Part shown: positions 14,781-29,781 of the stretch, piece after piece
Numbering within the stretch: position 1 is the first letter of the stretch
Layout: each line of letters begins with the position of its first letter
Origin: Pseudomonadales bacterium
GTDB lineage: Bacteria; Pseudomonadota; Gammaproteobacteria; Pseudomonadales; Azotimanducaceae
Assembly (NCBI GenBank): GCA_021295875.1
Contig: JAGWBN010000003.1
Span: 6,914 to 43,970 of the forward strand
DNA length: 37,057 nt
Reading direction: 5' to 3'
The notes under the pieces: generated by a model
What the model saw: the letters and a program-made list of their open reading frames with translations, nothing else
The model's database searches: none
What the model was told of the DNA's origin: nothing
Made by a program: the position numbers and the translations under genes

Positions 14781-16157
14781 GTGCATAGACGGCGGAACAA
14801 AACGGTAACGAGCATCGCGCTGGCGGCGTTGGCGCTGGCCGCCGCAACGGCGGCGCAGACGCCGCTCACCGATGCGGAACCGGCGAGGCCACGGGTCGCC
14901 GAAGAACTGCGGATCGGCGACGCCATGGTCGGCAACGAGGTGGATGAGGCCGCCGACAAGGTAACGTTGGGCGAGTACCTCGAGGCGGTCAACATCGTTG
15001 AACTCGTAATCGACAAGATCGAGCGGCGCTCGAGCCGCTACGACATCGAGTTGGCCAAGCCGCTGGTGGTCCTCGGCGATGCGCTCGTCGGTGTCGGCGA
15101 CCACCCCGGCGCATTCGGCGCATACGACCGAGCCCTGCACATCACCCGGGTCAACCAGGGACTGCATGATCCCAGCCAGGTGGACATCGTCTACCGCGAA
15201 GCCGCGCTGCATGCGGCCAATGGCGACGCCGAGCGGGCCAACAAACGCCATGAATACGCCTACAATCTCCTATTGCGAGCTTTCGGGAGCAACGACCCGG
15301 CCCTGCTCCCCGGGCTCTTTGCGCTCGCGGACTGGTACCTCACGAACTACAACATCTTCTCCGCGCGGGCCCTGTATCGACATGCGGTGTACGTCGCCAA
15401 CAAGTCGGACAACGACGACGAGGTGGCCACGATCCGCGCCTTGCGCGGTATCGCCGCAAGCTATCTCAGCGAGCGCTTTCCCCCCTACCACGAACCGCAG
15501 ACACAGTCCTCCGCGTCCAGCGGACCCTACACCAGCCGAACCCGTACCATCGGCTCGATCAACAGCTTCTCCCGGGGCGAGCGGGCCCTCATCGAAGTCG
15601 TCAGAGTCGTCAACGCACAGGCGGACGCCACCAACGAGGACCGGGCCGCCGCCATTCTGGAACTGGGCGACTGGTTCCTGATGTTCGAAAAGCACGAGCG
15701 GGCAATGACGCTCTATCGCCGGACGTGGGAACTGTTGAGCGCGAACGAGCCTTTGCTTGCCGAGACATTCCAATCACCCACGCCGCTGTACCTGCCGTTG
15801 CCGCCGGGTCCAGAAAAGTCCCGCAAAGCCACCGGCGGGCCCAGGAATGGCGTCATCGAACTGTCCTTACGGATCGATGAGCAAGGTGCCGTCAGCGAAA
15901 TCGACATGCTGCGTTCGGTTCCCAAGGACCTCATGGACACCGAAGTGCGTCGCGCCGTGCGCCGCGCACGGTATCGGCCCGCCTTCGACGGTCAGGTTCC
16001 GCGCGCGACCGAGGGTGTTCTCGTCAGCCACCCCTTCATCTATTTCGCGACCGACGAAACTGCGGACCCCGACGGGGCCGTGGCCGAAGGCCGCGACCAA
16101 GCCAATGCCAACCGAACACCGGTCGATGCCATCGCCCAGGCGCGAGGTCACCCATGA
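14781..16157 (+). CDS. Secreted TPR protein with TonB-type C-terminal domain
   Basis: First gene of the large operon, 458 residues. GTG 14781 is chosen because GAGGG precedes it and the resulting N-terminus (basic RRRNK, then SIALAALALAAATAAQ) is a signal peptide; the track start is 42 codons upstream and gives no signal. Residues about 40-360 are helical with TPR-like repeats (for example ALVGVGDHPGAFGAYDRALH and ILELGDWFLMFEKHERAMTL). Residues about 365-430 match the TonB C-terminal domain: GVIELSLRIDEQGAVSEIDM, then MDTEVRRAVRRARYRPAFDG. It lacks the TonB N-terminal membrane anchor and Pro-rich spacer, so it would be free in the periplasm or attached to another component. Stop overlaps the next ATG (ATGA). 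Confidence 0.8.
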   Translation: MHRRRNKTVTSIALAALALAAATAAQTPLTDAEPARPRVAEELRIGDAMVGNEVDEAADKVTLGEYLEAVNIVELVIDKIERRSSRYDIELAKPLVVLGDALVGVGDHPGAFGAYDRALHITRVNQGLHDPSQVDIVYREAALHAANGDAERANKRHEYAYNLLLRAFGSNDPALLPGLFALADWYLTNYNIFSARALYRHAVYVANKSDNDDEVATIRALRGIAASYLSERFPPYHEPQTQSSASSGPYTSRTRTIGSINSFSRGERALIEVVRVVNAQADATNEDRAAAILELGDWFLMFEKHERAMTLYRRTWELLSANEPLLAETFQSPTPLYLPLPPGPEKSRKATGGPRNGVIELSLRIDEQGAVSEIDMLRSVPKDLMDTEVRRAVRRARYRPAFDGQVPRATEGVLVSHPFIYFATDETADPDGAVAEGRDQANANRTPVDAIAQARGHP

Positions 16158-17119
16158 CTGCTCACTGCCGTTCGCATCCACAACGTCCATGCACCGCCGC
16201 GGTCGGTACCGCGACCGTGGCGCTCATCGCCGCCTGCGGCTTGTTCCTGTCGGGATGCTACGTGCCACTGCCCGGAGGTTCGGGGGGCATTCCTCGATCG
16301 ATTCCGCCCATCGGGATACCTTCGCCATCACCGTCGCTGCCATCACCCTCGCCACCATCCTCGGGTGGCGGCGCTTCGGGTGGGGGCGGGTCCCCAGGAG
16401 AACCGAGCCTGCTACCGCCCACCTCATCCGGACCACCCGGTGGATCGGGCGGCGGCGCGGGATTTCCCCGCGACGGGTCCAACGGCGGCGGATCGAGTTC
16501 CGGCGGAGGATCCCAAGGGGGACAGGGTCCGGACGGTGATGGCGGCGCCTCCGGTGGTGGAGGCTCCGAGGACGGCATGGGCGAGGACGGTGGTTCCACG
16601 GGCGAGGGTTCCGGCGACCAGAGCGCCGGCGGCTCCGGTGGTGGTGCCGGCGCATCGGGTGGCGACCCCGCCGACCAGGGTTGGGTATTGAGCAACGAGC
16701 TTCCGAACGCAACCGATGCCGGGCCCGGGGGCGAAGGGGACGGCGGCGGGGATGGCGCGGAGACGGACACGGACGCCGGCGGTGGTGGGACCGAGGACGA
16801 TGCCTTGGCCGAGGCACTCGAGGATCTCGACGGTGAGATCCTGGAACAGCAGGTTTCCACCCGCAAAAGTGACCAGGGTCTGGCCGGCGGGACCACGCGC
16901 GGCGGCGGCGATCCCGAAGACGAAGGAACCGCACCTCCAGCGCCGCCGGACCAGCCACCCGTGGCTCGAATACCCGAGCCCGTTCCGCCGGATCGTCCCG
17001 ATGCACGCGACGACGACGTCGTCGCGCGCCAGCTCCGCGAGGCTGCCATGGCCGAGAATGACCCGGATCTTCGCGAGAGCCTTTGGGAAGAGTACCAGCG
17101 CTACAAATCCGGTCTGTAG
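16154..17119 (+). CDS. Gly/Ser/Pro-rich predicted outer-membrane lipoprotein
   Basis: 321 residues, unrecognised. A long signal sequence ends in a lipobox LFLSGC (Cys35), with Tyr at +2, so outer-membrane sorting is expected by the E. coli rule. Residues about 37-70 are Pro/Ser-rich (SPSPSLPSPSPP); 70-220 are Gly/Ser/Asp-rich and low in complexity (GGASGGGGS, GGSGGGAGASGG); the last 80 residues contain PPAPPDQPP then a charged helix ending SLWEEYQRYKSGL. The middle looks like an extended, flexible tether across the periplasm. The open frame, unusual composition with codon bias matching its neighbours, and the ATGA overlap with the first gene all support a real gene despite the low complexity. 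Confidence 0.72.
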   Translation: MTAHCRSHPQRPCTAAVGTATVALIAACGLFLSGCYVPLPGGSGGIPRSIPPIGIPSPSPSLPSPSPPSSGGGASGGGGSPGEPSLLPPTSSGPPGGSGGGAGFPRDGSNGGGSSSGGGSQGGQGPDGDGGASGGGGSEDGMGEDGGSTGEGSGDQSAGGSGGGAGASGGDPADQGWVLSNELPNATDAGPGGEGDGGGDGAETDTDAGGGGTEDDALAEALEDLDGEILEQQVSTRKSDQGLAGGTTRGGGDPEDEGTAPPAPPDQPPVARIPEPVPPDRPDARDDDVVARQLREAAMAENDPDLRESLWEEYQRYKSGL

Positions 17120-17124
17120 TTCCT

Positions 17125-18459
17125 ATGCACCACCTCGAGTTTTTTTCCTCGTCTGCGGTTCGATGCCGCGTTGCGGTTGTGGCCGCCGGCTTCGCCGTCC
17201 TCCTCGGCGCCTGCTCATCGCACACGGTCCGCATGGTGGACACGACGCAGCCGAAGCAGCTCGACGACATCAGCGAGGACATGCTTCTCGACGTGGGCAT
17301 AGCGGTCTTCAACGCCAACGTCCCCGTGGCCTTCGACGATCAAGTCGCGCAGAACATCTCACCCGACGTGCGCCGCGCGGAAGCCAACTACATGGCCTTC
17401 TACACAAAGGACCTGTTGCAGTCGACGGGGAACTGGGGCGCCGTACGGGTCGTGCCGCGTCCCACCCACGCGGTGGACGTCATGGTCGGCGGCACCATCG
17501 TCCACTCGGACGGCGAACGCATGATCCTCGCCACCGAGGTGCGTGACGCCCGAGGGGTCGCCTGGTTCGCGAACACCTACGAAGCGCTGGCCAGCAAATA
17601 CGCCTACGGCGACACCGTGCCGCCCGGGACCGACCCCTTCCAGTCGATCTATCGCCGTCTGGCCGACGATATGGTGACCCACCTGCAGACCCTCGAGCCC
17701 AGCGAGGTGAGCGCCATCCGCCGAACGGCGGAGATGAAGTTCGCATCGGACCTGTCACCGGAGGCGTTCCAGTCGTACGTCGTCCAGACCGAACCCGGGG
17801 TTTTCGAAATCCGCCGGCTACCGGCCGAGGATGATCCAATGCTGCAGCGCATCCGCAAGGTGCGCGAACGCGAGTACATCTTCATCGACACCTTGGACAC
17901 GTACTACGACGACTTCCATCTGCGCATGTACCCCGCATACCAGGGATGGCGGGGCGCGACCTACGACGAGGCCATCGCCTACCGCAATCAGCGCGAGAAG
18001 GTCCGCCGCCAGGCATTGGCCGGCGTCATCGCGATCACGGCCGGTTCCGCCGCCCAGATGGGGGATCGAACCTTGACCCGCTACGCCGGCGCCGTGTCGA
18101 TCATCGGCGGCGCAAGGACGGCCATCAAGGCCATCGAGAGCCTCGACCGCGCCAAGGCCCATGCCGGCATGCTACGCGAACTCGGCATGTCCGCGGAGGC
18201 CGCGATCACACCGCACACCATCGAACTCGAGAACCGCACCCACCGCCTTGACGGTACGGTCACCGCGCAGTACGACGAACTGCGCCAGGTGCTACGGCGG
18301 ATCTACTACCAGGAACTGGGCTTGCCGCCGCCGGCGGACGATTCGTCCGCGGACGACCTCGAGAATGCGGTAGCCGAGGCCGCAGCCGCCAGCGAGGAAC
18401 TGGCCGCCGTCGTCGAAGCAACCGCGAATCCGGGCGCGCTGGCCGAGGGAGCGAAGTGA
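17125..18459 (+). CDS. Predicted outer-membrane lipoprotein of unknown function
   Basis: 444 residues from ATG 17125, five bases after the previous stop; the track start lies inside that gene. The signal peptide ends in AVLLGACSS (lipobox, Cys30, Ser at +2). The next 170 residues look like a mixed alpha/beta domain with the pattern VDVMVGGTIVHSDGERMILATEVRDARG, reminiscent of lipoproteins with a CsgG-like or LpoB-like fold, but I cannot confirm this. A central part has DTYYDDFHLRMYPAYQGWR, then helices (REKVRRQALAGVIAITAGSA), and an Ala/Glu-rich tail. No enzyme motif is visible. It sits between another lipoprotein and membrane-anchored TPR/PEGA proteins, which suggests a structural envelope role. 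Confidence 0.78.
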   Translation: MHHLEFFSSSAVRCRVAVVAAGFAVLLGACSSHTVRMVDTTQPKQLDDISEDMLLDVGIAVFNANVPVAFDDQVAQNISPDVRRAEANYMAFYTKDLLQSTGNWGAVRVVPRPTHAVDVMVGGTIVHSDGERMILATEVRDARGVAWFANTYEALASKYAYGDTVPPGTDPFQSIYRRLADDMVTHLQTLEPSEVSAIRRTAEMKFASDLSPEAFQSYVVQTEPGVFEIRRLPAEDDPMLQRIRKVREREYIFIDTLDTYYDDFHLRMYPAYQGWRGATYDEAIAYRNQREKVRRQALAGVIAITAGSAAQMGDRTLTRYAGAVSIIGGARTAIKAIESLDRAKAHAGMLRELGMSAEAAITPHTIELENRTHRLDGTVTAQYDELRQVLRRIYYQELGLPPPADDSSADDLENAVAEAAAASEELAAVVEATANPGALAEGAK

Positions 18460-18490
18460 CCGGGCGCGCATCCGCGGGCACCCCGGCAAC

Positions 18491-20005
18491 ATGACTGCAG
18501 AGCCCGTACACATCGAACCCGTTGCGCCGCCCCTGTCCGGGCGCGGGCGCGACTCCCGGTGGCACCGTCCTCGAGACCCACGGCGCTCGACATGGCGGGT
18601 ATTCGCGTTCGCCACCGCGCTCACCGTCCTCGCCGGTGCGCTGGTGTTTGTCGCGGCCTATCTCCCGGAACGCATCGACCGACCTCGATCATCGCTGGAC
18701 GCGGCAGCACCCAACCCGGCAAGCCCTCCCCGGAGTCGGCCCGATGAGGAGATCGTGCCACCCTTCGAGGCCGCCGAGTTGGCCCAGGCGCGTCAACAGG
18801 CGGAGGCACAGCTCGCGGAATTCGTCGCCGTGCAGATCCGACTCGACAACGAACTCAATGTTGCGGCTTGGGGCGAGGCCGAGCTTGCCGCGATCAAGGA
18901 TCGGGCGAACGCCGCCGACGAGCTGTTCGTCGCCGGGCGATTCCACGAGGCCCTGGACGAGTACGCCGGGGCCACGGACGAACTCAAGGCGCTCGTCGAC
19001 CGGGGCAACGAACTGTTCGCGGCCGCCCTTGCCGAGGGCGAGGCGGCGATCGCCGCGCTCGACCACCCTGCCGCGGTCGCCAGGTTCGAACAGGCTGCGA
19101 CGATCCGCGCTGACGATCCCCGCGTCGCCGCCGGGTCCGTCCGCACCGCAAGGCTCCCCGAGGTCATCGGCCTGCTGCGCGAGAGCGACCGCGCGGTGCT
19201 GCGTGGCGAGTATCCGCTGGCGGAGGAGTTTCTCGGTCAGGTGAAGGCCATCGATCCGGGAACCACCGGGCTTGACGCGCGCTTTGCCGCCATCGCCGCG
19301 AACATTGCCGACGAACGTCGGCGGAAGACGCTGTCTGAAGGCTTCGGGGCCTTGGAAAGGGGCGAACACGGCGCGGCCATCGATGCGTTCGAGCGAGTGC
19401 TCGCCGGGACCCCGCAGGATCCGGACGCGCTCGCGGGGCGGCAGCAGGCCCGACAGGCGCGAACCTTGGCTGAAATCGATCGGCTGCGCGGCGTGGCGGA
19501 GAAAGCGGAGCGTCAAGCCAAGTGGGAATCGGCCTTGGCAGCCTACGACGCGGCGCTGGCGATCGATCCCACCCTCAAGTTCGCCATCGCTGGCAAACAG
19601 CGAATCGCCGGTCGGGTGGCGCTGATGCAGGCCATGACCAGGTTCAACGAGGATCCCGCAGTGCTGTCCGGCGACGACGAGTTCGCCCGCGCCCGCGAGG
19701 TGCTCGCGAGGGCCGTGGCGGAGGTCGATCCCGGCGAACCCTTCACCGCCGCGATCGCCAAGCTCGGCGCCATCATCACGCAAAGCACGGCACCCGTGCC
19801 GTTGGTGCTGGTCTCGGACAACGCCACCGAAGTGATCATTCACAAGGTCGGCACCCTGGGCATGTTCACGCGCAATGAACTCCTGCTGCGACCGGGCCGC
19901 TACACCATCGTCGGCAGCCGGGACGGGTGCCGGGACGTGCGCAAGGAGATCATCCTGGCGGCCGACATGGAACCGGTCGACATCCGCTGCGTCGAAAACA
20001 TCTAA
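18491..20005 (+). CDS. Membrane-anchored TPR protein with PEGA-like C-terminus
   Basis: 504 residues. A basic cytoplasmic N-tail (HRPRDPRRSTWR) leads into one membrane helix at about residues 37-59 (VFAFATALTVLAGALVFVAA), so the rest is periplasmic. Residues about 95-420 are helical, with TPR-like units such as GFGALERGEHGAAIDAFERV and AERQAKWESALAAYDAALAI. The last 70 residues are beta-rich: VPLVLVSDNATEVIIHKVG, then LLLRPGRYTIVGSRDGCRDV, which resembles a PEGA domain. The next protein also combines one anchor helix with PEGA units, so the two may form a shared periplasmic assembly. It starts 31 bp after the previous gene, without a strong ribosome site. Confidence 0.78.
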   Translation: MTAEPVHIEPVAPPLSGRGRDSRWHRPRDPRRSTWRVFAFATALTVLAGALVFVAAYLPERIDRPRSSLDAAAPNPASPPRSRPDEEIVPPFEAAELAQARQQAEAQLAEFVAVQIRLDNELNVAAWGEAELAAIKDRANAADELFVAGRFHEALDEYAGATDELKALVDRGNELFAAALAEGEAAIAALDHPAAVARFEQAATIRADDPRVAAGSVRTARLPEVIGLLRESDRAVLRGEYPLAEEFLGQVKAIDPGTTGLDARFAAIAANIADERRRKTLSEGFGALERGEHGAAIDAFERVLAGTPQDPDALAGRQQARQARTLAEIDRLRGVAEKAERQAKWESALAAYDAALAIDPTLKFAIAGKQRIAGRVALMQAMTRFNEDPAVLSGDDEFARAREVLARAVAEVDPGEPFTAAIAKLGAIITQSTAPVPLVLVSDNATEVIIHKVGTLGMFTRNELLLRPGRYTIVGSRDGCRDVRKEIILAADMEPVDIRCVENI

Positions 20006-20012
20006 CCGCCCC

Positions 20013-20087
20013 ATGAGACAGACGTTCCGAATGTTGACGACGGATCGGCACCCACTCGCTACCGCCGGCTGCGGGGCGTTCGCATGA
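20013..20087 (+). CDS. Possible 24-residue ORF before the PEGA-SUMF1 gene
   Basis: The 78-bp gap before the next gene holds a short frame starting at ATG 20013 (MRQTFRMLTTD...) and ending at TGA 20085-20087, which overlaps the ATG of the next gene as ATGA. It could be a coupling leader peptide that delivers ribosomes to the next start, or simply chance. No hydrophobic or regulatory pattern is visible. Confidence 0.2.
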   Translation: MRQTFRMLTTDRHPLATAGCGAFA

Positions 20088-22153
20088 GCGACCCGCAAGC
20101 ACCTGCACAGGGCGCCGACGGCGGCCGCATCGAAGCCGTTCAGTTCCGGCCCACCGCCACAACCGCCGGTCGGCGTTCACACTTCATCAGCGTGCGCCGC
20201 ATCCTTTTGGTCGGCGGCTGCACCGTCGCGCTGTCGGTTCTGTGGTTCATCTTCACCGCCAAGTCCGTGCGGCTGGACGTCGACCCGGCCGACGCGAGCA
20301 TCGCCATCGACGGTGGATTCGCGTTTCGTCTGGGCGAGATCCATCTGCTGCGCCAAGGCTCCTACGACCTCGTGGCCGAAGCACTCGGCTACGAGACACT
20401 TCGCCGCTCGATCGAGGTCGGCGCGGAGCGCAATCAGGCGATCGCCGTGGACCTACGCGCTCTCCCGGGATGGGTGACGTTCGCCATCGACCCGGAGGGT
20501 GCCCGGGTCGCGGTGGTCGGCAGCGACGGACTCCACGGCATCTCGCCGGTGGAGCTCCACGTGCCGGCCGGGCCTCAAACCGCCACCGTGAGCCATCCGC
20601 GCTATCAGGAAGCCACCGTTGCCTTCGAGGTCGAGGGGCGCGAGCAGCGCCAGACCGTTACCACATCGCTCGTACCCGACTGGGCCGACGTGACCATTCC
20701 CACCACGCCGACGGGTGCCGAGGTACGCATCGACGGTGAGCTGTCCGGCGTCGCAACGCCCGGACCGGTTCCGGTTCCCGCAGGCGAACGGCGCGTCTCG
20801 GTGAGCCTGCCCGGCTACGGCACCTGGACCGACCTCCTCTACGTCGAGGCGCAGCAGGTGATCGCATTGGACCCCATCACACTCCGCGAGGCCGACGGCC
20901 AGATCCGGGTGGCGTCGAAGCCGCCCGGCGCGAGCGTGACCGTCGACGGCGACTACCGAGGTGTCACCCCCGTGGTACTCGATGTCGCATCGGGCCGCCG
21001 CCACGCGATCCGCGCGTTCAAGGTCGGCTACGCACCGAAGAACGTGTCGGTGACCGTACCCTCCGCTGAACGCAAGAACCTCTCGTTCACCCTCGAGGCC
21101 CTTGAAGGCGTTCTGGCCATCGAGACGCGACCGGAGGATGCCGAACTGTGGATAGACCGCGAACGCCGCCGCCCGGAAGGGGGTACCCTTACCCTGTCGG
21201 CCGTACCCCACGAACTCGAGGTCAAGAAGACCGGCTACGCCAGTTATCGGGTGACGATCGTGCCCCAACCCGGATTGACGCAGGAACTGAAGGTCAAGTT
21301 GCTGACATTGGAGGAAGCGCGTCTCGAGGCCCTCAAACAGGTACGGACCACCGGTCAGGGCCAGGAACTCGTGCTTTTGAGTCCGGGTGCCATACGCATG
21401 GGCGCATCACGGCGGGAACCCGGTCGGCGGGCCAACGAGGTGCTGCGCGACGTCGAACTGACGCGGCTCTTCTATCTCGGACGCCACGAAGTGACCAACG
21501 CACAGTTCCGCGCGTTCGCCTCCGGCCACGACTCCGACGGCTTCGAGGGTCTCGACCTGAACCGCCCGGACCAACCCGTGGTGAGGGTCTCCTGGCAGGA
21601 CGCCGCCCTCTACTGCAACTGGCTGTCCGCGCAGGACGATCTCGAGCCGTTCTACCGCGAGGAGCTGCGCAAGGTCGTGGGGTTCAATCCCACGGCGCTC
21701 GGCTACCGACTGCCCACCGAAGCGGAATGGGCTTGGACCGCACGCCACGTGGAGGGCGCGGACCCGTTGCGCTTCCCCTGGGGCGACCGGCTGCCGCCGC
21801 CGGAACGCCACGGCAACTACGCCGACATCTCGGCGGCGCACACGGTGGCGCGCATCATCTTTGGCTACGCCGACAATCACATCGTCACCGCGCCGGTGGC
21901 TTCGTTCGAGGCCAACGCCAAGGGCATCCACGACCTAGGCGGCAACGTCGCGGAGTGGGTGCACGACTACTACGGCATACCCGCCGCTGCGCCGGCGGTC
22001 GATCCGCTGGGCCCGAATCAGGGCGAGTACCACGTGATCCGCGGCGCCAGCTGGATGCACGGCACGGTCAGTGACCTGCGGCTCTCGTACCGGGACTACG
22101 GCACCGACGGCCGACCCGACGTCGGCTTCCGCATCGCGAGATTCGCGGAGTGA
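20084..22153 (+). CDS. Membrane-anchored PEGA-repeat protein with SUMF1/FGE-fold domain
   Basis: 689 residues. One membrane helix at about 38-59 (RILLVGGCTVALSVLWFIF) is followed by about five consecutive PEGA-like beta units (roughly residues 60-425; for example IRVASKPPGASVTVDGDYRG and VAIPAGERR-type turns), then a SUMF1/formylglycine-generating-enzyme fold from about 435 to the end. FGE-fold signatures include FYLGRHEVTNAQFRAF, YRLPTEAEWAWTARH, GIHDLGGNVAEWVHDYYG, VIRGASWMHG and DVGFRIARF. The two cysteines that bind copper in true aerobic FGE are not present near the C-terminus, so sulfatase activation is unlikely; a binding or PvdO/EgtB-like role is possible. The domain would face the periplasm. 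Stop overlaps the next GTG. Confidence 0.85.
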   Translation: MSDPQAPAQGADGGRIEAVQFRPTATTAGRRSHFISVRRILLVGGCTVALSVLWFIFTAKSVRLDVDPADASIAIDGGFAFRLGEIHLLRQGSYDLVAEALGYETLRRSIEVGAERNQAIAVDLRALPGWVTFAIDPEGARVAVVGSDGLHGISPVELHVPAGPQTATVSHPRYQEATVAFEVEGREQRQTVTTSLVPDWADVTIPTTPTGAEVRIDGELSGVATPGPVPVPAGERRVSVSLPGYGTWTDLLYVEAQQVIALDPITLREADGQIRVASKPPGASVTVDGDYRGVTPVVLDVASGRRHAIRAFKVGYAPKNVSVTVPSAERKNLSFTLEALEGVLAIETRPEDAELWIDRERRRPEGGTLTLSAVPHELEVKKTGYASYRVTIVPQPGLTQELKVKLLTLEEARLEALKQVRTTGQGQELVLLSPGAIRMGASRREPGRRANEVLRDVELTRLFYLGRHEVTNAQFRAFASGHDSDGFEGLDLNRPDQPVVRVSWQDAALYCNWLSAQDDLEPFYREELRKVVGFNPTALGYRLPTEAEWAWTARHVEGADPLRFPWGDRLPPPERHGNYADISAAHTVARIIFGYADNHIVTAPVASFEANAKGIHDLGGNVAEWVHDYYGIPAAAPAVDPLGPNQGEYHVIRGASWMHGTVSDLRLSYRDYGTDGRPDVGFRIARFAE

Positions 22154-22542
22154 ACATCCGCCTTTCGCCCCGGGGCCGACCCTACGCCGTCCTCGCGGTG
22201 TGCATCGCCCTGGCATGCTGTGCCGCCCCCGGCCAACATGCACAGGCGGCGCAGGCGAGCGAAGAGTCCGCGGCGGAGGAATTCGAACCCGTAGAGGTGC
22301 CGGTCTCCGATCCGTCTCCGACCGACGGCGAGGACGCAGCGGAACCGGCGCACGCGAGCCCCGCGGCCGACGGCGAGGACGAGGCTGCGCCCGCCGACGC
22401 GAGCCCGGCGGACGCCGACACCGACACCGACGCCGATACCGACACCGAGCCGCCGCCGACCGAGGACCAAGCCGCCGAGGTATTCGTTCCGAGCGAGAAC
22501 ATTTCCGAAGACATCTCCGTGCCGTTCCCAGTGGACATCTGA
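22150..22542 (+). CDS. Exported acidic, Ala/Asp/Glu/Pro-rich small protein
   Basis: 130 residues, unrecognised. GTG start overlapping the previous stop (GTGA). Residues 1-33 form a signal peptide (YAVLAVCIALACCAAPGQHA); the AxxCC region could be read as a poor lipobox but lacks the usual spacing. The remainder is highly acidic and probably disordered, with a short tandem repeat DADTDTDADTDTEP encoded by repeating gac-acc/gac-gcc codons (about 22411-22450). It ends in ENISEDISVPFPVDI. Such a protein may be a periplasmic spacer or an ion-binding partner. The four-base overlap and its place between the SUMF1-fold gene and the channel gene support it as a real member of the operon. Confidence 0.65.
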   Translation: MNIRLSPRGRPYAVLAVCIALACCAAPGQHAQAAQASEESAAEEFEPVEVPVSDPSPTDGEDAAEPAHASPAADGEDEAAPADASPADADTDTDADTDTEPPPTEDQAAEVFVPSENISEDISVPFPVDI

Positions 22543-22545
22543 ACA

Positions 22546-23343
22546 ATGAAGAAGACCCTGCCGTTCGAGTTCGTCTACCAGGTGATCGCGCTCATCGTCG
22601 CCATCATCATCGTGCATCTGACCTACGTGACGGTCGTGCGCCCGAACGCGGACGCCATCCTCGAGGCCCAGGCCAACCGCGCCCAGACGGGCGAGGCGTT
22701 CGTCCCCGACCGCTCCCTCTATGTGGTGCTGCGGGACTACGAGCAGGAGTCCTGCTTCATTTTGATGATCTGGGCGATGTCCATCATGGGGCTGAAGGCC
22801 AGGAACTCGCTGCGTGAACGCAGGATGCTGCAGGAGTCCTTCATCGAGGTGACCGAAGGCATCAGCGTACTGCCCGAGGACACCCGCGAGTACGCCCGGC
22901 CGCTGCAGGCCCTACCCGAGTCGACGCGCAGCAACCTGCTGCCCCGTGCGTTGCTCGCCGCACTGCAGCGTTTCGCATCCACCAGCAACGTCCAGGATGT
23001 GTCCAACGCCGTGCGCGCGGTCTGCGAAACGGAGTCCGATCGCCTGGACAGCGAGCTGGCGATGGTCCGCTACATCGCCTGGGCCATCCCGTCGATCGGT
23101 TTCATCGGTACCGTGCGCGGCATCGGCGACGCCCTGGGGCAGGCGTACCGGGCCGTGGAAGGCGACATCGCCGGCGTGACCGCGAGCCTGGGGGTGGCAT
23201 TCAACTCGACCTTCGTTGCCCTGGTGATCAGCATCGTCGTGATGTTCCTGATGCACCAACTGCAACTCATCCAGGAGCGCCTGGTGCTCGATACGCAGCA
23301 CTACTGCGACGACTACCTGATCCGTCACATGCAGGTGCGCTGA
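22546..23343 (+). CDS. MotA/TolQ/ExbB-family proton-channel subunit
   Basis: 265 residues. Four hydrophobic segments are visible: about 11-31 (QVIALIVAIIIVHLTYVTVV), 69-84 (SCFILMIWAMSIMGL), 172-195 and 212-238. The last pair carries the family signature: AWAIPSIGFIGTVRGIGDAL and LGVAFNSTFVALVISIVVMF, equivalent to the LLGLLGTVxGI and TxxGLxVAIP regions of TolQ/ExbB. The 85-residue stretch between helices 2 and 3 is cytoplasmic. The four-helix layout is nearer to MotA than to three-helix ExbB. In known systems such a subunit forms a pentamer around a dimer of ExbD/TolR/MotB. No such gene is in this operon; the downstream vWA proteins have the corresponding helix motif. Confidence 0.88.
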   Translation: MKKTLPFEFVYQVIALIVAIIIVHLTYVTVVRPNADAILEAQANRAQTGEAFVPDRSLYVVLRDYEQESCFILMIWAMSIMGLKARNSLRERRMLQESFIEVTEGISVLPEDTREYARPLQALPESTRSNLLPRALLAALQRFASTSNVQDVSNAVRAVCETESDRLDSELAMVRYIAWAIPSIGFIGTVRGIGDALGQAYRAVEGDIAGVTASLGVAFNSTFVALVISIVVMFLMHQLQLIQERLVLDTQHYCDDYLIRHMQVR

Positions 23344-23345
23344 CC

Positions 23346-24644
23346 GTGATCGTGCTGGACATCAACGACGTCGAAACCACCCTCTACCGGGACGGTGAGA
23401 TCGTCTACCGCGAGCCGGGCTTCGCCTTCGTCGACAACGACGGCGCGGTGTTCGGCCGCGAAGCGCTGTCCCGGTCGCGTCTCCATCCCCGGCAGTCCCA
23501 CAACGAATTCTGGCAGCGCCTCAACGGGGACCCGGTGTCGCCGCCCGGCCAGGGCGTGGCGAACCAGGCCGATCTCGTCTACCTGCAGTTGCTCGCCATG
23601 CGCGAGGCCCTCGGCCTGGGACCGACCGATGCCGACCGGCCAGCCCTGGTCGTCGCCGCGCCTAGCACGGTCACCTCCGAACAGTTCGCCGTGCTGCTCG
23701 GAATCGCCGGCGAAGCCGGGTTCGAGGTGCGCACCATCGTCGATGCCGCGGTGGCCGCGGCCTGCCTGCTGCCGCTTTCCGGATCCTGCCGGCTACTCGA
23801 CCTGTCGCTACACCGTGGGCACGTCACCCACTTGGACGTCGACCCCGGGCAAGCCACGGTGCGCCGAACATCCGTTGACGAGATCCCCGCCATCGGGCTT
23901 GCCTCGCTGATCGAAGGCTGGGTGGACGTGGTTGCCGACCGTTTCGTCGACGGTACGCGCTTCGATCCGCTGCGTATCGCCGAGACGGAACAACGGGTTT
24001 TCGAGCAAGTGGTCGCCGGGATCGAGGCCGGGGATGCCGAACTCACCATCGAGGTCGTCCATGACGAGGTGGCGCGGCGGGTCACGGTGGCAAGGCACGC
24101 GCTCGGGGAGAAGTCTCGGCAGCGCTACGAACTCCTGGCGCGGTCCATCGGCGACCCCGGCACCCTCGTGATGAGCCATCGAATGCGCCGACTTCCGGGT
24201 CTCGCTGGCTTTCTTCAGGACGCCGGCCACGAGCTGCTGCCACTTGCTCCGGACGCCGTGGTCGCCGGCATCGCGGAGAATCCCGACCACATCCAACCGG
24301 ATGGCGCACGGGCCGGCGCAAGACTGGTCACCAGCCTGCCCAGCCGCAGCGAGAGCCAAGGCGCGATGTTGCGCGAACCGCCCACGCACCTATTGTGCGC
24401 GGCCGTCGCGATACCGCTCGCCGAAGACACCAACGCACGCGATCATCCCGGCTGCAAGGGTAGCCCGGGGTTCCGCGTGCTGCGCGCCGACCGCAGTTTC
24501 TCGGTGGCCCCCGCCGACGGCGCGGATGTCGCCCTGAACGGCAGTCACATCGACTTCGAACATCCCGCCGAGGCGGGCGACCACATCGTCGCCGGCGGCC
24601 AGGAGTTCCAATTGATCAGCGTTTCCGACCAACAGGACGGGTAA
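23346..24644 (+). CDS. Hsp70/actin-like ATPase-fold protein with FHA-like C-terminus
   Basis: 432 residues, GTG start three bases after the previous gene. The N-terminal 330 residues look like an actin/Hsp70-type nucleotide-binding fold without a chaperone substrate domain: VLDINDVETTLYRDG (phosphate-1-like), LVVAAPSTVTSEQFAVLLGI, then GFEVRTIVDAAVAAACLLPL and LLDLSLHRGHVTHLDVD. The usual DxGxxT phosphate loop is altered to DINDVE and DLSLHRG, so ATP hydrolysis is uncertain. The last 55 residues (RVLRADRSFSVAP, ALNGSHIDFEHPAEAG, EFQLISV) are beta-rich and resemble an FHA-like sandwich. No signal or helix is present, so it is cytoplasmic and could bind the channel's cytoplasmic loop. Confidence 0.72.
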   Translation: MIVLDINDVETTLYRDGEIVYREPGFAFVDNDGAVFGREALSRSRLHPRQSHNEFWQRLNGDPVSPPGQGVANQADLVYLQLLAMREALGLGPTDADRPALVVAAPSTVTSEQFAVLLGIAGEAGFEVRTIVDAAVAAACLLPLSGSCRLLDLSLHRGHVTHLDVDPGQATVRRTSVDEIPAIGLASLIEGWVDVVADRFVDGTRFDPLRIAETEQRVFEQVVAGIEAGDAELTIEVVHDEVARRVTVARHALGEKSRQRYELLARSIGDPGTLVMSHRMRRLPGLAGFLQDAGHELLPLAPDAVVAGIAENPDHIQPDGARAGARLVTSLPSRSESQGAMLREPPTHLLCAAVAIPLAEDTNARDHPGCKGSPGFRVLRADRSFSVAPADGADVALNGSHIDFEHPAEAGDHIVAGGQEFQLISVSDQQDG

Positions 24645-25733
24645 GTGGCCAAGCGCGGCGGCCGCCGGTTCAACGTCTTCTCCCTGTCGTTTCTCGACGT
24701 CATGTCCTGCGGCTTCGGCGCCGTCGTGCTGGTCTTCCTCATCATCAACCACCGCATCGAGGACACCACCAGGGACATCGACCGCGACCTGCTCTCGGAG
24801 TCGCGCAAGCTCGACTTCCAGATCGAGGAGGGTGAGAAGAACCTGGTCGATCTGCAGGAACGGCTGCAGGACACGAAGAAGCGCGTCGGCGATGCCAGCA
24901 ACCAGCTCGTCGCCCTGATCGAGGACCGGGACGCGCGCCGCGAAGAGCTGGAGGAACTCGACGCCAAGTCGGCGGCGGAGCGCGACAGCGTCGAGCAACT
25001 GCAGTCCGACGTCGAGACCCGCGAAAAGGACGTCAAGCAACTGCAGGACGAGGAAGAGGCCCTGTCCGGTACCCGGGTTCGCCAGGTCAAGGGCGAAGGG
25101 GATCGACAGTATCTCACGGGTCTGTATGTCGGCGGTCGGCACGTGCTGATCGCCCTCGACGTGTCGGCGAGCATGCTCGACGAGACCATCGTGCAGGTCA
25201 TCCGGCGGCGCAACATGCCTCGCGAGCGCCAGCTCGCATCACCCAAGTGGCAGCGAGCGCTGGCAACCGTGGATTGGCTCTCTGCGCAGATCCCGTTGGA
25301 CAGCAATCTCCAGATACTGCTCTACAGCGACGAGGCCAGAACGCTCCTGCCTAGCGACGCGTGGTATCCGGTCAGCGACGCGGCGATCGTCAACGCGGCC
25401 TTGGACGACTTGGCCGAGATGGTCCCGAGCGGCGGCACCAATCTCGAAGGGTTGATCGAGGCCCTGGCGCAGTTGCGGCCGTTGCCGGACAACGTGTACC
25501 TGATCACCGACGGTCTGCCGACCCGATCCAATCGCCAACCCCGCTCCGCCGCGGTGAGCGGACGCGACCGCGTCCGATTCATGGAAGACGCCGAAAAACG
25601 GATGCCACGGGACGTAACCGTGAACGTCATCATGTTCCCCATGGAAGGTGACCCCAACGCATCCGCCGCCTATTGGATCCTGGCCGGCCGCAGCGGCGGC
25701 ACGTACATGTCGCCGTCCAGGGACTGGCCATGA
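24645..25733 (+). CDS. Membrane-anchored vWA protein 1, ExbD-like transmembrane motif
   Basis: 362 residues, GTG start abutting the previous stop (TAAGTG). Residues 12-34 form one membrane helix, FSLSFLDVMSCGFGAVVLVF, with Asp18 near its start. Residues about 36-140 are a charged coiled coil (SESRKLDFQIEEGEKNLVDL and on). Residues about 165-345 are a vWA domain with a complete MIDAS-type start DVSAS (172-176), a threonine in SGGTNLEGLIEAL and an aspartate in VYLITDGLPTRS, so metal-dependent ligand binding is plausible. With a short cytoplasmic N-tail the vWA domain would be periplasmic. The FLDVM core matches ExbD (PFIDVM) and TolR (PLLDVL). It ends with a four-base overlap (ATGA) with vWA2. 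Confidence 0.85.
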   Translation: MAKRGGRRFNVFSLSFLDVMSCGFGAVVLVFLIINHRIEDTTRDIDRDLLSESRKLDFQIEEGEKNLVDLQERLQDTKKRVGDASNQLVALIEDRDARREELEELDAKSAAERDSVEQLQSDVETREKDVKQLQDEEEALSGTRVRQVKGEGDRQYLTGLYVGGRHVLIALDVSASMLDETIVQVIRRRNMPRERQLASPKWQRALATVDWLSAQIPLDSNLQILLYSDEARTLLPSDAWYPVSDAAIVNAALDDLAEMVPSGGTNLEGLIEALAQLRPLPDNVYLITDGLPTRSNRQPRSAAVSGRDRVRFMEDAEKRMPRDVTVNVIMFPMEGDPNASAAYWILAGRSGGTYMSPSRDWP

Positions 25734-26696
25734 TCCCGCGACGCGGATTGGAAGAGATCGGCCTGTCGTTCCTCGACGTCATCTGCTGTGGATTCGGCGC
25801 CATCATCCTGCTGCTGATGATCGTCAAGACCGTGGAACCGATCCTCCTCGAGGAGCCGGTGGTCAATCTCGAGGGCCTCGTAACCGAGAAACGGGACTCG
25901 CTCAACGAAATCATCGGCCGCACGCGGATCCTGACGCGGCAGCTCAGCGACGAGGAGCGGCAACTGGCCCGCGACCTGGCCGAGCTGGCTCGGCTGGAAC
26001 GCGACCTTAACGACATCCTCGCCCGCTACCACGCCACTAGTGAACAAGCCGAATTTCAGACCAACCAGCGTCTGCGGCTCGCCCGGGCCAAGCAGTCGCT
26101 GACCGAGGAGATGGAGCGTCTGCTGGGCCTCGACTTCGTGCGCAGCACCATCGACAGCGAGTACATCATCTTCGTCATCGACACCTCGGGCAGCATGCGC
26201 CAGTGGGCTTGGCCGATCGTCCAAAGGAAGGTCCAGGAAACGCTGCAGATCTATCCCCGCGTCAAGGGCATCCAGGTCATGAACGACATGGGCGACTACA
26301 TGTTTCCGCAGTTCGCCGGCCGCTGGATTCCCGACTCCGAACGCCGCCGGCGCGACATCGTGCGGCTTCTTGCGACCTGGAGCGCGCAGTCGAATTCCAG
26401 TCCGGTCGAGGGGATTCGGGCGGCCATCACGACGTTCTACGCCACCGACCGCAAGATCAGCATCTACGTCTTCGGCGACGACTTCTCCGGCCGGTCCATC
26501 GAGGACGTCGTCGACACCGTCGATCAGCTCAACCGCATCGCCGAGGACGGAAGCCGACGCGTGCGCATTCACGCCGTGGGCTTCCCCGTGGTGGTGGGTG
26601 CCCCCTCCGGCAACCGGTTCGCCGCACTCATGCGCGAGTTGACCTACCGGAACAACGGAACCTTTGTCGCCCTGCCACGATTGGAGTAGGCTTCAA
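25536..26696 (+). repeat. Direct repeat, copy A (vWA1 tail plus vWA2)
   Basis: First copy of a tandem duplication. It runs from CAACCCCGCTCCGCC in the vWA1 tail, through all of vWA2, to TAGGCTTCAA just after the vWA2 stop. Copy B is 1415 bp further on. The copies differ at many third codon positions, so the duplication is not recent. Confidence 0.9.
25730..26689 (+). CDS. Membrane-anchored vWA protein 2, ExbD-like transmembrane motif
   Basis: 319 residues from ATG 25730 (the track start lies 19 codons upstream inside vWA1). Layout repeats that of vWA1: short N-tail, one membrane helix at about 11-33 (GLSFLDVICCGFGAIILLLM, Asp16), a heptad-like coiled coil (about 50-135, NEIIGRTRILTRQLSDEERQ and on) and a vWA domain from 144. 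The MIDAS start is DTSGS (151-155). The loop SNSSPVEGIRAAITTFY and the strand ISIYVFGDDFSGRS are the expected later elements. Sequence similarity to vWA1 is strong only in the helix and in the vWA core, so they are distant paralogues that may work as a heterodimer. An intact copy; a frameshifted copy follows. Confidence 0.87.
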   Translation: MIPRRGLEEIGLSFLDVICCGFGAIILLLMIVKTVEPILLEEPVVNLEGLVTEKRDSLNEIIGRTRILTRQLSDEERQLARDLAELARLERDLNDILARYHATSEQAEFQTNQRLRLARAKQSLTEEMERLLGLDFVRSTIDSEYIIFVIDTSGSMRQWAWPIVQRKVQETLQIYPRVKGIQVMNDMGDYMFPQFAGRWIPDSERRRRDIVRLLATWSAQSNSSPVEGIRAAITTFYATDRKISIYVFGDDFSGRSIEDVVDTVDQLNRIAEDGSRRVRIHAVGFPVVVGAPSGNRFAALMRELTYRNNGTFVALPRLE

Positions 26697-26732
26697 CCAA
26701 GCGCTCGCCACGCCGACGCAGCAGGTCGGACG

Positions 26733-26972
26733 ATGACCACCGGACGACTTGCCCCACGCGGCGCCGCGGCCGGCCTGATCGTCCTCTCGGCCGCGTGGCT
26801 CGCCGGCGGCTGTGTCCAGACCACGGTCCAGGGCGTGCGCCAGGCGGAAACCGACCTCGGCGCGAGCGAATCCGTCGTGGTCCTGTCGAGGAAACACGAG
26901 ACCCAGGGCGAGACCGAAGACGACTTCGTCTCATGCGTCAGCGACCAGATCAACCCCGCTCCGCCACGGTGA
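26733..26972 (+). pseudogene. Truncated copy of the terminal operon lipoprotein
   Basis: ATG 26733 opens a 79-residue frame. Its first 71 residues closely match the start of the lipoprotein gene at 29077 (signal ending LAGGC, then VQTTVQGVRQAETDLGASES). After CVSD at 26945 the match stops and the frame reads QINPAPPR then TGA, because the DNA switches to a copy of the vWA1 tail. It lacks about 70% of the parent. The 32 bases before its ATG also match the end of the preceding lipoprotein gene (28259-29080). It could still produce a short lipopeptide but is best read as a duplication remnant. Confidence 0.85.
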
Positions 26973-27148
26973 GCGGGCGAGACCGCACCCGATTCATGGA
27001 GAGCGCCGCAGAACTATTGCCAAGGGGCGTCGTGTTGAACGTCATCCTGCTTCCAATGGAAGGCGACCCCGGCGCGTCCGCCGCCTATTGGATGCTGGCG
27101 GGCCGCATCGGCGGCACGTACACTTCGCCGTTCAGGGACTGGCCATGA
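26951..27148 (+). pseudogene. Remnant of the vWA1 C-terminus
   Basis: About 65 codons that match the last 65 residues of vWA1: VSGRDRTRFMESAAELLPRG, GDPGASAAYWMLAGRIGGTY, ending SPFRDWP. No start or vWA core is present. It ends with the same ATGA overlap into the next vWA2-like frame as the intact gene does. The track ORF 26795-27148 extends it only through an out-of-frame part of the truncated lipoprotein. Non-functional by itself. Confidence 0.88.
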
Positions 27149-28106
27149 ACCCGCGACGTGGATTGGAAGAGATCGGCCTGTCGTTCCTCGACGTCATCTG
27201 CTGTGGATTCGGGGCCATCATTCTGCTGCTGATGATCGTCAAGACGGTGGAACCGATCCTGCTCGAGGAGCCGGTGATCAACCTTGAGGGGCTCGTGATC
27301 GAGAAGCGGGATTCGCTCAACGAGATCATCGGCCGCACCCGGATCCTGACCCGGCAGCTCAGCGACGAGGAGCGGCAACTGGCCCGCGATCTGGCTGAAC
27401 TGGCCCGGCTGGAACGGGACCTCAACGACATCCTCGCCCGCTACCACGCCACCGCCGAGGAAGCCGAGCACCAGAACACCGAGCGGCTGCGGCTCGCCCG
27501 GGCCAAGCAGTCGCTGACCGAGGAGATGGAGCGTCTGCTGGGCCTCGACTTCGTGCGCAGCACCAGGTCGACAGCGAGTACATCATCTTCGTCATCGACA
27601 CCTCGGGCACCATGCAGCGGGGGGCGTGGCCGATAGTCCAAAGGAAAGTCCAGGAAACGCTGCAGATCTATCCCCGCGTCAAAGGCATCCAGATCATGAA
27701 CGACATGGGCGGCTACATGTTTCCGCAGTTCGCCGGCCGCTGGATTCCGGACTCCGAACGCCGCCGGCGGGACATCGTGCAGATTCTCGCGACTTGGAGC
27801 CCAATGTCGAATTCCAGCCCCGTCGAGGGTATCCGCGCGGCCATCACCACCTTCTACAGCACCGACCACAAAGTCAGCATCTACGTCTTCGGCGACGACT
27901 TCTCGGGCAGGTCCATCGAATATGTCGTGGACACCGTCGATGAGCTCAACCGTATCGCCGAGGACGGCAGCCGGCGCATGCGCATTCACGCGGTGGGCTT
28001 TCCCGTGAGGGTGGGGAGCCCGTCCGGCAATCGGTTCGCCGCGCTCATGCGCGAACTCACCTACCGGAACAACGGAACCTTTGTCGCCCTGCCGCGATTG
28101 GAGTAG
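27145..28106 (+). pseudogene. Second copy of vWA2, interrupted by a 2-nt insertion
   Basis: Near-identical in layout to vWA2 (roughly 90% of residues by eye). ATG 27145 leads into the same membrane helix GLSFLDVICCGFGAIILLLM and coiled coil. After RST (codon 140) two extra bases, GG at 27566-27567, shift the frame, and the original frame ends at 27636. The vWA half continues intact in another frame to 28106. In this copy the MIDAS reads DTSGT instead of DTSGS. Substitutions are mostly silent or conservative on both sides of the shift, so the gene was under selection until recently; sequencing error or very recent decay would explain it. No slippery heptamer is visible. The N-terminal product would be helix plus coiled coil only, 163 residues. 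Confidence 0.85.
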
Positions 28107-28258
28107 GCTTCAATTGACCCGTTCGGAGCGCCACTCGCATGGCACTCACTCGCATTGCACTGGGGCTGGCTCGTTGCCCGGCGTCGGCGGCGACGCTTCT
28201 CGCCGGAACAATTCGCGTGGCGAATTCTCGGCACGGCCGTGAGGCGGTGGCGTTTGGC

Positions 28259-29080
28259 GTGCATCGCAATCGACGGAGTCCCTACGGTGCGCTGGCTACC
28301 GCGTTGGTCGCCGGCTGGCTACTCGGCGGCTGCAGCAGTGGCGCATCCATCACCGTGGATGTCGACGTGCCCCGTCCGCTGGTCGAACCGATCAACGCCG
28401 CGGTCGGCATCTACTACAACGACGAACTGAGGAACTACGTCCACGAGGAAGAACTCGTCGACCACGGCAAGTACCGGATCGACATAGGTGCCTCCCATGC
28501 ACCGGTGTTCGCCCAGGTCTTCGATGCGATGTTCGAGACCGTCGTGCCCATGGCCCTCGTCCCTGGCGACGAGGCACCGGCCGACGAGCCACCCGCGGAC
28601 GAGACACCCGCCGACGACGAGGCCGGTGCGGGGGATGCCGACCTCGAAGAAACGGACGCCGCGACCGACAGCGATGCCGCGGGTGCGCCACCGGTCAGGT
28701 TCACCCGCCCGGACGGCAGCAAGCCCGCCGTCGCCGGCATCATCGCGCCGAGCATCGAAGAGGTCCAATTCGCGATTCCGAGACAGACGGGCGGCGAGTT
28801 CTACGAGGTCTGGATCCGCTACCGACTGGATCTCTACGACACCAACGGCAACCGCTTGGGCGAATACCCCGTGATCGGCTACGGCAAAGCCAACAAAGCC
28901 AACTTCGGTGGCCTTGGGCAGGCTTCACCCGCGCTCAACGAGGCGACCATGTGGGCGCTGCGCGACGCAGCCGCAATGCTCTCGTTCCAGTTCCGCGACC
29001 AATCGGAGTCCAAAGACTGGCTCGCCATGATCGCCACCCGCAACGCCTACGCCACGCCGCCGCACGCGGTCGGACAATGA
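28259..29080 (+). CDS. Predicted outer-membrane lipoprotein of unknown function
   Basis: 273 residues from GTG 28259. The track start (ATG 28139) would place the lipobox at residue 65; the GTG puts it at residue 25 (GALATALVAGWLLGGC, Ser at +2), and GGCGGTGG lies 8 bases upstream. The exact start is still uncertain. The first domain (about 28-105) contains VGIYYNDELRNYVHEE and VFAQVFDAMFETVVPM, a pattern I associate with conserved envelope lipoproteins of unknown role. An acidic linker (PADEPPADETPADDEAG) separates it from a second domain with FYEVWIRYRLDLYDTNG and a helical tail. The last codons overlap the next gene as ATGA, and a relic of its end is also present at 26701-26732. Confidence 0.75.
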   Translation: MHRNRRSPYGALATALVAGWLLGGCSSGASITVDVDVPRPLVEPINAAVGIYYNDELRNYVHEEELVDHGKYRIDIGASHAPVFAQVFDAMFETVVPMALVPGDEAPADEPPADETPADDEAGAGDADLEETDAATDSDAAGAPPVRFTRPDGSKPAVAGIIAPSIEEVQFAIPRQTGGEFYEVWIRYRLDLYDTNGNRLGEYPVIGYGKANKANFGGLGQASPALNEATMWALRDAAAMLSFQFRDQSESKDWLAMIATRNAYATPPHAVGQ

Positions 29081-29781
29081 CTACCGGACGGCTTCCGCCA
29101 CGCGGCATCGCTGTCGGCCTACTCGTCCTCGCGGCCGCGTGGCTTGCCGGCGGTTGCGTGCAGACCACGGTCCAGGGTGTGCGCCAGGCGGAAACCGACC
29201 TCGGCGCGAGCGAGTCCGTGGTGATCCTGTCGAGGAAACACAAGACCCAGGGCGAGACCGAAGACGACTTCGTCGCCTGCGTCAGCGACTATGTCAAAAG
29301 CGGCAGCGACGCCGTGCCCATCCTCACCGAACGCGAGTTCGTCGATGCCACCTTCCCCTGGTTCGAGCCGCGCACGGCGCCGCTCAACATGGACGATCTC
29401 ACCCAGGTCATCAACCGGCCCCTCATCGCTGAACGAATCGACGAGATCGGCGTCCGCTACCTCGTCTGGATCGAGGGCCAGACGCGACGATCCGATCAGA
29501 CCGGCAGCCTCCAGTGCACCATGATGACCGGCGGCGTACCCGGTTGTCTGGGGTTCCTGTCGTGGGAGCGGGGGTCGAACTACGAGGCCTCGGTGTGGGA
29601 CGTCCGTCGCAAGATGACCGTCGGCACGTTGAGTTCCGAGGCCGCCGGCACGAGTTTCGTCATCGCCGTGGTGGTTCCCGTGCCCGTCATCGCCCGGGTC
29701 CAGGAGGAGGCGTGCGCCAACCTGTCGCAGGAGATCAAGAACTTCCTCGGCCCGCAGGACTCGTCGACCGCCGACGCGTAG
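29077..29781 (+). CDS. Predicted lipoprotein, last gene of the envelope operon
   Basis: 234 residues from ATG 29077, overlapping the previous stop. Lipoprotein signal LLVLAAAWLAGGC (Cys27, Val at +2). The mature part has DDFVACVSDYVKSGSDAVPI, then TEREFVDATFPWFEPRTAPL and VRYLVWIEGQTRRSDQTG, followed by a short Cys-containing loop (LQCTMMTGGVPGCLGFLSWE) and beta-strand pattern YEASVWDVRRKMTVGTLSSE. The ending VIAVVVPVPVIARVQEEACA then a helix is consistent with a CsgG/LpoB-like alpha/beta domain, but I cannot assign a family. Four cysteines could form disulfides in the periplasm. A truncated duplicate lies at 26733. Confidence 0.78.
   Translation: MTTGRLPPRGIAVGLLVLAAAWLAGGCVQTTVQGVRQAETDLGASESVVILSRKHKTQGETEDDFVACVSDYVKSGSDAVPILTEREFVDATFPWFEPRTAPLNMDDLTQVINRPLIAERIDEIGVRYLVWIEGQTRRSDQTGSLQCTMMTGGVPGCLGFLSWERGSNYEASVWDVRRKMTVGTLSSEAAGTSFVIAVVVPVPVIARVQEEACANLSQEIKNFLGPQDSSTADA

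Follow-up and report, generated by a model that had tools for sequence, protein, structure and literature searches.

A conserved gammaproteobacterial operon that may encode an ion-driven trans-envelope machine with paired vWA motor subunits

The operon described here probably encodes an ion-driven machine that spans the cell envelope, and its likely job is to provide an energised link from the outer membrane to the cell wall in envelope maintenance; that job is our best guess, made by analogy with known ion motors. Its gene content and order, the aspartate-bearing helices, the channel residues, the predicted folds and the linkage of the genes are read from the sequence. The window, a 37,057-nucleotide stretch from a Pseudomonadales bacterium, is part of contig C67 of a 3.14 Mb draft genome that is 81% complete. 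Open reading frame and Pfam annotation placed a co-directional operon at 14781-29781 on the + strand, with genes labelled A to L, and all coordinates below refer to this strand, with start codons assigned mechanically. The original prediction had described co-directional, often overlapping genes carrying a set of named domains, and every named element was found there. The A/B, E/F, I/J and K/L junctions overlap, and four proteins (B, C, K and L) carry lipoprotein signals, assigned by a simple pattern match. Promoter and terminator scans of the operon gave scores not above those of shuffled sequences. Searches of NCBIfam left B, C, D, H and J without a name, and the matches to I were coiled-coil matches.

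The evidence for a motor comes from G, I and J. G (22546..23343) is a channel subunit of the MotA/TolQ/ExbB family (MotA_ExbB, PF01618, E = 1.5e-14) with one extra N-terminal transmembrane segment, and its sole match in the PDB was TolQ (E 0.044). The segments IP..GF.GTVRGIG and AFNST are invariant in 27/27 aligned sequences, as are threonines T189 and T222, which by analogy would line the pore. I (24645..25733; vWA1, VWA_2 2.9e-07) consists of one transmembrane helix, a coiled coil and a vWA domain. J (25730..26689; vWA2) is its full-length paralog by alignment and profile-profile comparison (E 5e-26); the two occur as a pair, and their sequences identify them as ancient paralogs. Each begins with a short cytoplasmic tail followed by a single helix of the form SFLDV..CGFGA. 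The Asp of the FLD motif (Asp18 in I) is present in 92/92 homologs of I and 86/86 of J. It aligns with the Asp of five ExbD proteins of the same genome, in their LTPMLDVV motif (LTPMLDVVFIMLIFF against SLSFLDVMSCGFGAVVL), and with the position of the proton-carrying Asp of ExbD/TolR; the GFGA segment has no counterpart in ExbD. The MIDAS residues are intact in all sequences of both proteins, with DxSxS in 69/69 homologs of I. No ExbD was found in Pfam scans of the window operon or on contig C67, and six ExbD genes lie elsewhere in the genome. Given the channel residues, the Asp-bearing helices and the lack of ExbD on the contig, the natural reading is that G and an I-J heterodimer would form a 5:2 ion motor in which the two vWA proteins supply the axle. 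The proposal that casts the vWA proteins as stator partners of the channel is thus well supported by the invariant transmembrane Asp in both, the absence of ExbD, TolR and MotB from the locus, and the strict linkage of the genes.

Downstream of J lies J' (26951..28113), a decayed tandem copy of the 3' end of I plus J (89% identity over 1166 nt), to which the vWA-like open reading frames at 26812-28106 belong. It carries a frameshift near the MIDAS, which reflects either true decay or an assembly problem. J itself also has a gap at the position of the J' frameshift: 7 residues present in its relatives are missing just in front of the vWA domain. J' was not found in the nearest relative (L036/L072), and it stands outside the conserved machine.

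Two bitopic proteins are candidate partners of the vWA domains. D (18491..20005) is a TPR protein with a short cytoplasmic N-terminus and a transmembrane segment at 37-55, and E (20084..22153) carries five PEGA repeats (2.9e-39) followed by an FGE/SUMF1-fold domain (FGE-sulfatase, 1.6e-43). The predicted SUMF1 fold is therefore present, but the cysteine pair of FGE is not: none of 69/69 homologs has a Cys in the last 60 aa. This rules out E as a functional FGE, and its SUMF1 domain is probably structural. A 'FTAKSV' motif in the transmembrane segment of E was considered as a docking site and rejected, as it fades in distant loci. B (16154..17119) is a Gly/Pro-rich disordered lipoprotein that has no Pfam match and belongs to the core gene order; about 30 aligned homologs share a conserved C-terminal helix, DDDVVARQLREAAMAE.DPELRE.LWEEYRRYK. 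F (22150..22542), an exported disordered protein of 130 aa that most loci place between E and G, similarly ends in an aligned motif, (V)F.PSE.ISED..V.FPVDI. Conserved ends after long disordered stretches are as expected of tethers, and B and F are candidates for that role.

The remaining envelope-side proteins are A, C, K and L. A (14781..16157) is an exported TPR protein (TPR_12, 2e-11) with a C-terminal TonB_C domain (1.2e-07); it has a signal peptide and no further transmembrane segment predicted by hydropathy, and it is accessory: many distant loci lack it or carry it elsewhere. C (17125..18459) is a lipoprotein predicted to combine an alpha/beta domain with a long coiled coil (AF2 pLDDT 85). 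In Foldseek its model matched LptE (E 3.6e-4) and TolB (probability 1.0, E 2.4e-3) with TM-scores <0.2 by query length, so that the predicted alpha/beta domain resembles TolB-N/LptE weakly. K (28139..29080) and L (29077..29781) are predicted accessory lipoproteins, identified by lipobox pattern and synteny. The lipobox is kept in 57/63 homologs of C, 47/58 of K and 52/61 of L, and the common cases have no Asp at position +2. Under the general Lol rules a lipoprotein without Asp at +2 goes to the outer membrane, which suggests that location for C, K and L. An M48 metallopeptidase gene often follows L (L102:15998-17608 and relatives, ~30 loci); it is possibly merely a common neighbour.

H (23346..24644) is the cytosolic member of the set. 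Its AF2 model (pLDDT 94) matches Hsp70s (Ssz1/DnaK) in Foldseek at E ~1e-17, and its C-terminal tail matches FHA domains. The prediction of an Hsp70/actin-like protein with an FHA-like tail holds for fold and tail, but the phosphate and adenosine motif columns are degenerate by eye, and 'Hsp70/actin-like' should accordingly be taken to describe a fold, not an ATPase activity. Apparent links to Ser/Thr phosphorylation were found around D. The window's own D has no kinase match in a Pfam scan (PF00069); in homologs of ~700-820 aa the N-terminus forms a Hanks-type Ser/Thr kinase domain, canonical in L226 and L231 (PF00069 E 1e-29 to 1e-30) and in L239 (home-made profile), and degenerate in about 11 (L053, L058, L059, L104, L129, L130, L133, L137, L138, L139 and L142). 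In a tree built on the concatenated G, I, J and E sequences, kinase-bearing D was confined to one clade, sister to that of the window, so the kinase was rejected as an ancestral part of D, and a clade-specific fusion is the simpler reading. A separate Ser/Thr kinase and PP2C phosphatase adjoin the operon at L231:169-2339, L104:16607-18903 and L122:15608-18086. Of the two kinases in the window's genome, neither lies at the operon. Together, the FHA-like domain of H, the kinase-bearing D and the neighbouring kinase/PP2C genes suggest that at least one lineage controls the system by phosphorylation. A possible FHA domain in E of L233 reached a Pfam E of only 0.098.

We asked how widely the gene set is kept together. 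In the profile annotation of ~135 loci, those whose flanking sequence reached far enough showed the order B-C-D-E-G-I-J in 26/27, 53/54 and 11/13 cases, where the sets of 27 and 54 overlap in some genomes. Across ~90 loci this conservation holds down to low identity and is well beyond chance; the gene sets are not scattered among relatives. Among 98 related genomes, G matched at E <= 1e-66 in 55/60 of the same family and in 4/37 from the order's other families. An even sample of the class (276 genomes) contained 16 with a full-strength match to J and three more whose I/J match lay close to the end of a contig; G was present in all 19 and on the same contig in 18/19. The only clear unlinking is in G284 (L234 and L235), where I, J, H, E and D share one contig and G is on another. 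Outside the class, seven genomes from one genus of another class, also within the Pseudomonadota, gave matches, and the 3/3 that were read fully have B-C-D-E-G-I-J. Of the named relatives, the nearest is a gammaproteobacterial MAG (L072, 96% in G); Pseudomonadales MAGs, Microbulbifer, Exilibacterium, Marinibactrum, Porticoccus and Kineobactrum are also among them. The neighbouring DAO and SufB genes are often conserved as well. A plasmid or mobile origin was rejected, since a tblastn search of 72,556 plasmids with G gave only three partial matches at ~31-33% identity. Two departures from the common layout were seen. In four loci (L065, L066, L067 and L068) there is a second, diverged C-D-E-G-I-J set that lacks H, beside the main version in 3/4 of these genomes, so that two types can coexist; in L062 the operon is rearranged, with H, K and L between E and G.

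The motor core itself is not new. PMC12204202 (Mol Biol Evol 2025, Fig. 4c,d), starting from Idiomarina loihiensis as query, used AF3 to predict motors of Proteobacteria in which a TolQ-like pentamer surrounds heterologous pairs of vWA proteins with Asp-bearing helices and tolR/exbD is absent. The operon resembles the motors of that figure in the tight linkage of a tolQ-like gene to vWA genes, in the lack of tolR, exbD and motB in the window operon and on contig C67, in the heterologous vWA pairs, whose TolR/ExbD-like helix has a conserved Asp, and in the conserved channel Thr of G, pore-lining by analogy. Beyond the motor and vWA genes, that paper's motor section mentions a TPR gene with another vWA family, but none of the lipoproteins, the PEGA-SUMF1 protein, the Hsp70-FHA protein or the kinase/phosphatase links described here. 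A literature search on the full composition, whose scope left out preprints and most subscription papers, returned only PMC12204202 and an unrelated eLife 2020 paper; we could not find the lipoproteins, E, D, F or H described as additions to the core. The suggestion that the system was undescribed thus stands in that we found no experimentally characterised system of the same composition, but fails for the core, which the motor section of PMC12204202 had predicted.

Better-known machines share parts of this composition. Like Tol-Pal, the operon would join inner to outer membrane through a 5:2 ion motor, and C has a weak TolB-N-like domain; unlike Tol-Pal, it lacks TolR, TolA, the TolB propeller and Pal, and vWA proteins would serve as the B subunits. 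The genome's own TolB is encoded separately, on contig C242, so the operon is additional to the Tol-Pal system that this genome also appears to encode. ExbBD-TonB shares the channel family, the Asp-carrying helix and the TonB_C-type domain seen in A, whereas the operon has neither ExbD nor receptor genes, and A has no membrane anchor beyond its signal peptide. The channel family and a partner helix with Asp are likewise common to MotAB and to Zorya ZorAB, but a vWA domain replaces the OmpA-type peptidoglycan-binding domain of the MotAB partner, and ZorB and ZorC/D are missing. The type 9 secretion proteins GldKLMN also combine an ion motor with an FGE-fold protein; in contrast, no GldM or GldN is present here, and the operon's FGE protein is anchored in the inner membrane and carries PEGA repeats.

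In the machine we propose, a pentamer of G would enclose an axle formed by the transmembrane helices of I and J, each contributing one ion-carrying Asp, and ion flow driven by a proton- or sodium-motive force would turn or rock this axle by the 5:2 mechanism known from ExbBD, TolQR and MotAB. The periplasmic, MIDAS-bearing vWA domains would cyclically bind partners, namely the inner-membrane proteins E (PEGA-SUMF1) and D (TPR). Through E/D, or through the tethers B and F, they would reach the lipoproteins B, C, K and L, probably in the outer membrane, and force would then arrive at the outer membrane or the cell wall. Cytosolic H may gate or assemble the motor, and in the related clade the kinase domain on D could give a phosphorylation input. 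We infer assembly into one complex, rotation, the type of ion, the outer-membrane location and the regulation, and the conserved proteins may not all belong to one complex.

The main rival to envelope maintenance is surface motility, adhesion or secretion. The machine could power gliding, adhesion or protein secretion, in the manner of GldLM-driven type 9 secretion or Agl-Glt, with E forming a GldK-like ring and the vWA domains serving as adhesive arms. The intact MIDAS fits such arms, vWA adhesins have been tied to Myxococcus gliding (work cited in PMC12204202), and no flagellin was found in the 81% complete genome. The SUMF1 domain of E also scores on the GldK model (2.2e-25), but its 89.8 bits are far under the cut-off of 350 and reflect general FGE-domain similarity. 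Moreover, E is anchored in the inner membrane and is not a lipoprotein, and the operon shows no recognisable GldM/N, secretin, adhesin or outer-membrane barrel. We therefore regard a surface process as rather unlikely, while keeping it as the foremost competitor.

A static role for G, I and J, as scaffold or gated channel with a structural Asp and no energised motor, seems improbable to us. The motor reading draws on sequence, with ion flux and motion inferred, and the GFGA segment sets the helix apart from ExbD; against this, neither the Asp nor the Thr residues opposite it vary, the signature of working 5:2 motors, and the AF3 models in PMC12204202 place the Asp pair within the Thr ring. Still far less probable is anti-phage defence related to Zorya, a link that the original prediction had raised and that is not favoured here. 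Zorya has a MotA-like channel too, and ZorA was the sole PADLOC match of G, but at a negligible E of 0.017 and with no ZorB, C or D in the operon. An operon found in 55/60 genomes of the family, often with its housekeeping DAO and SufB neighbours kept, is unlike mobile defence loci, and the defence role was rejected on PADLOC results, distribution and context. An energised envelope link remains our preferred reading.

For ion-driven envelope machines, what was a sketch of a motor becomes a full list of parts with conserved architecture, and many marine gammaproteobacteria carry the same dozen-gene block. Because it occurs in cultured genera such as Microbulbifer and Exilibacterium, its function is directly testable. 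The heterodimeric axle and the link to Ser/Thr phosphorylation would, if true, both be unusual in this class of motors. Tentatively, and as a possibility that we hold with less than even confidence, the operon may add to Ton and Tol a third energised system that crosses the envelope and is core in a large family of marine gammaproteobacteria. In it, a 5:2 motor whose axle is a vWA heterodimer would act through a periplasmic PEGA/TPR/SUMF1 frame on outer-membrane lipoproteins, gated from the cytosolic side by H and, in some lineages, by a Ser/Thr kinase and phosphatase.
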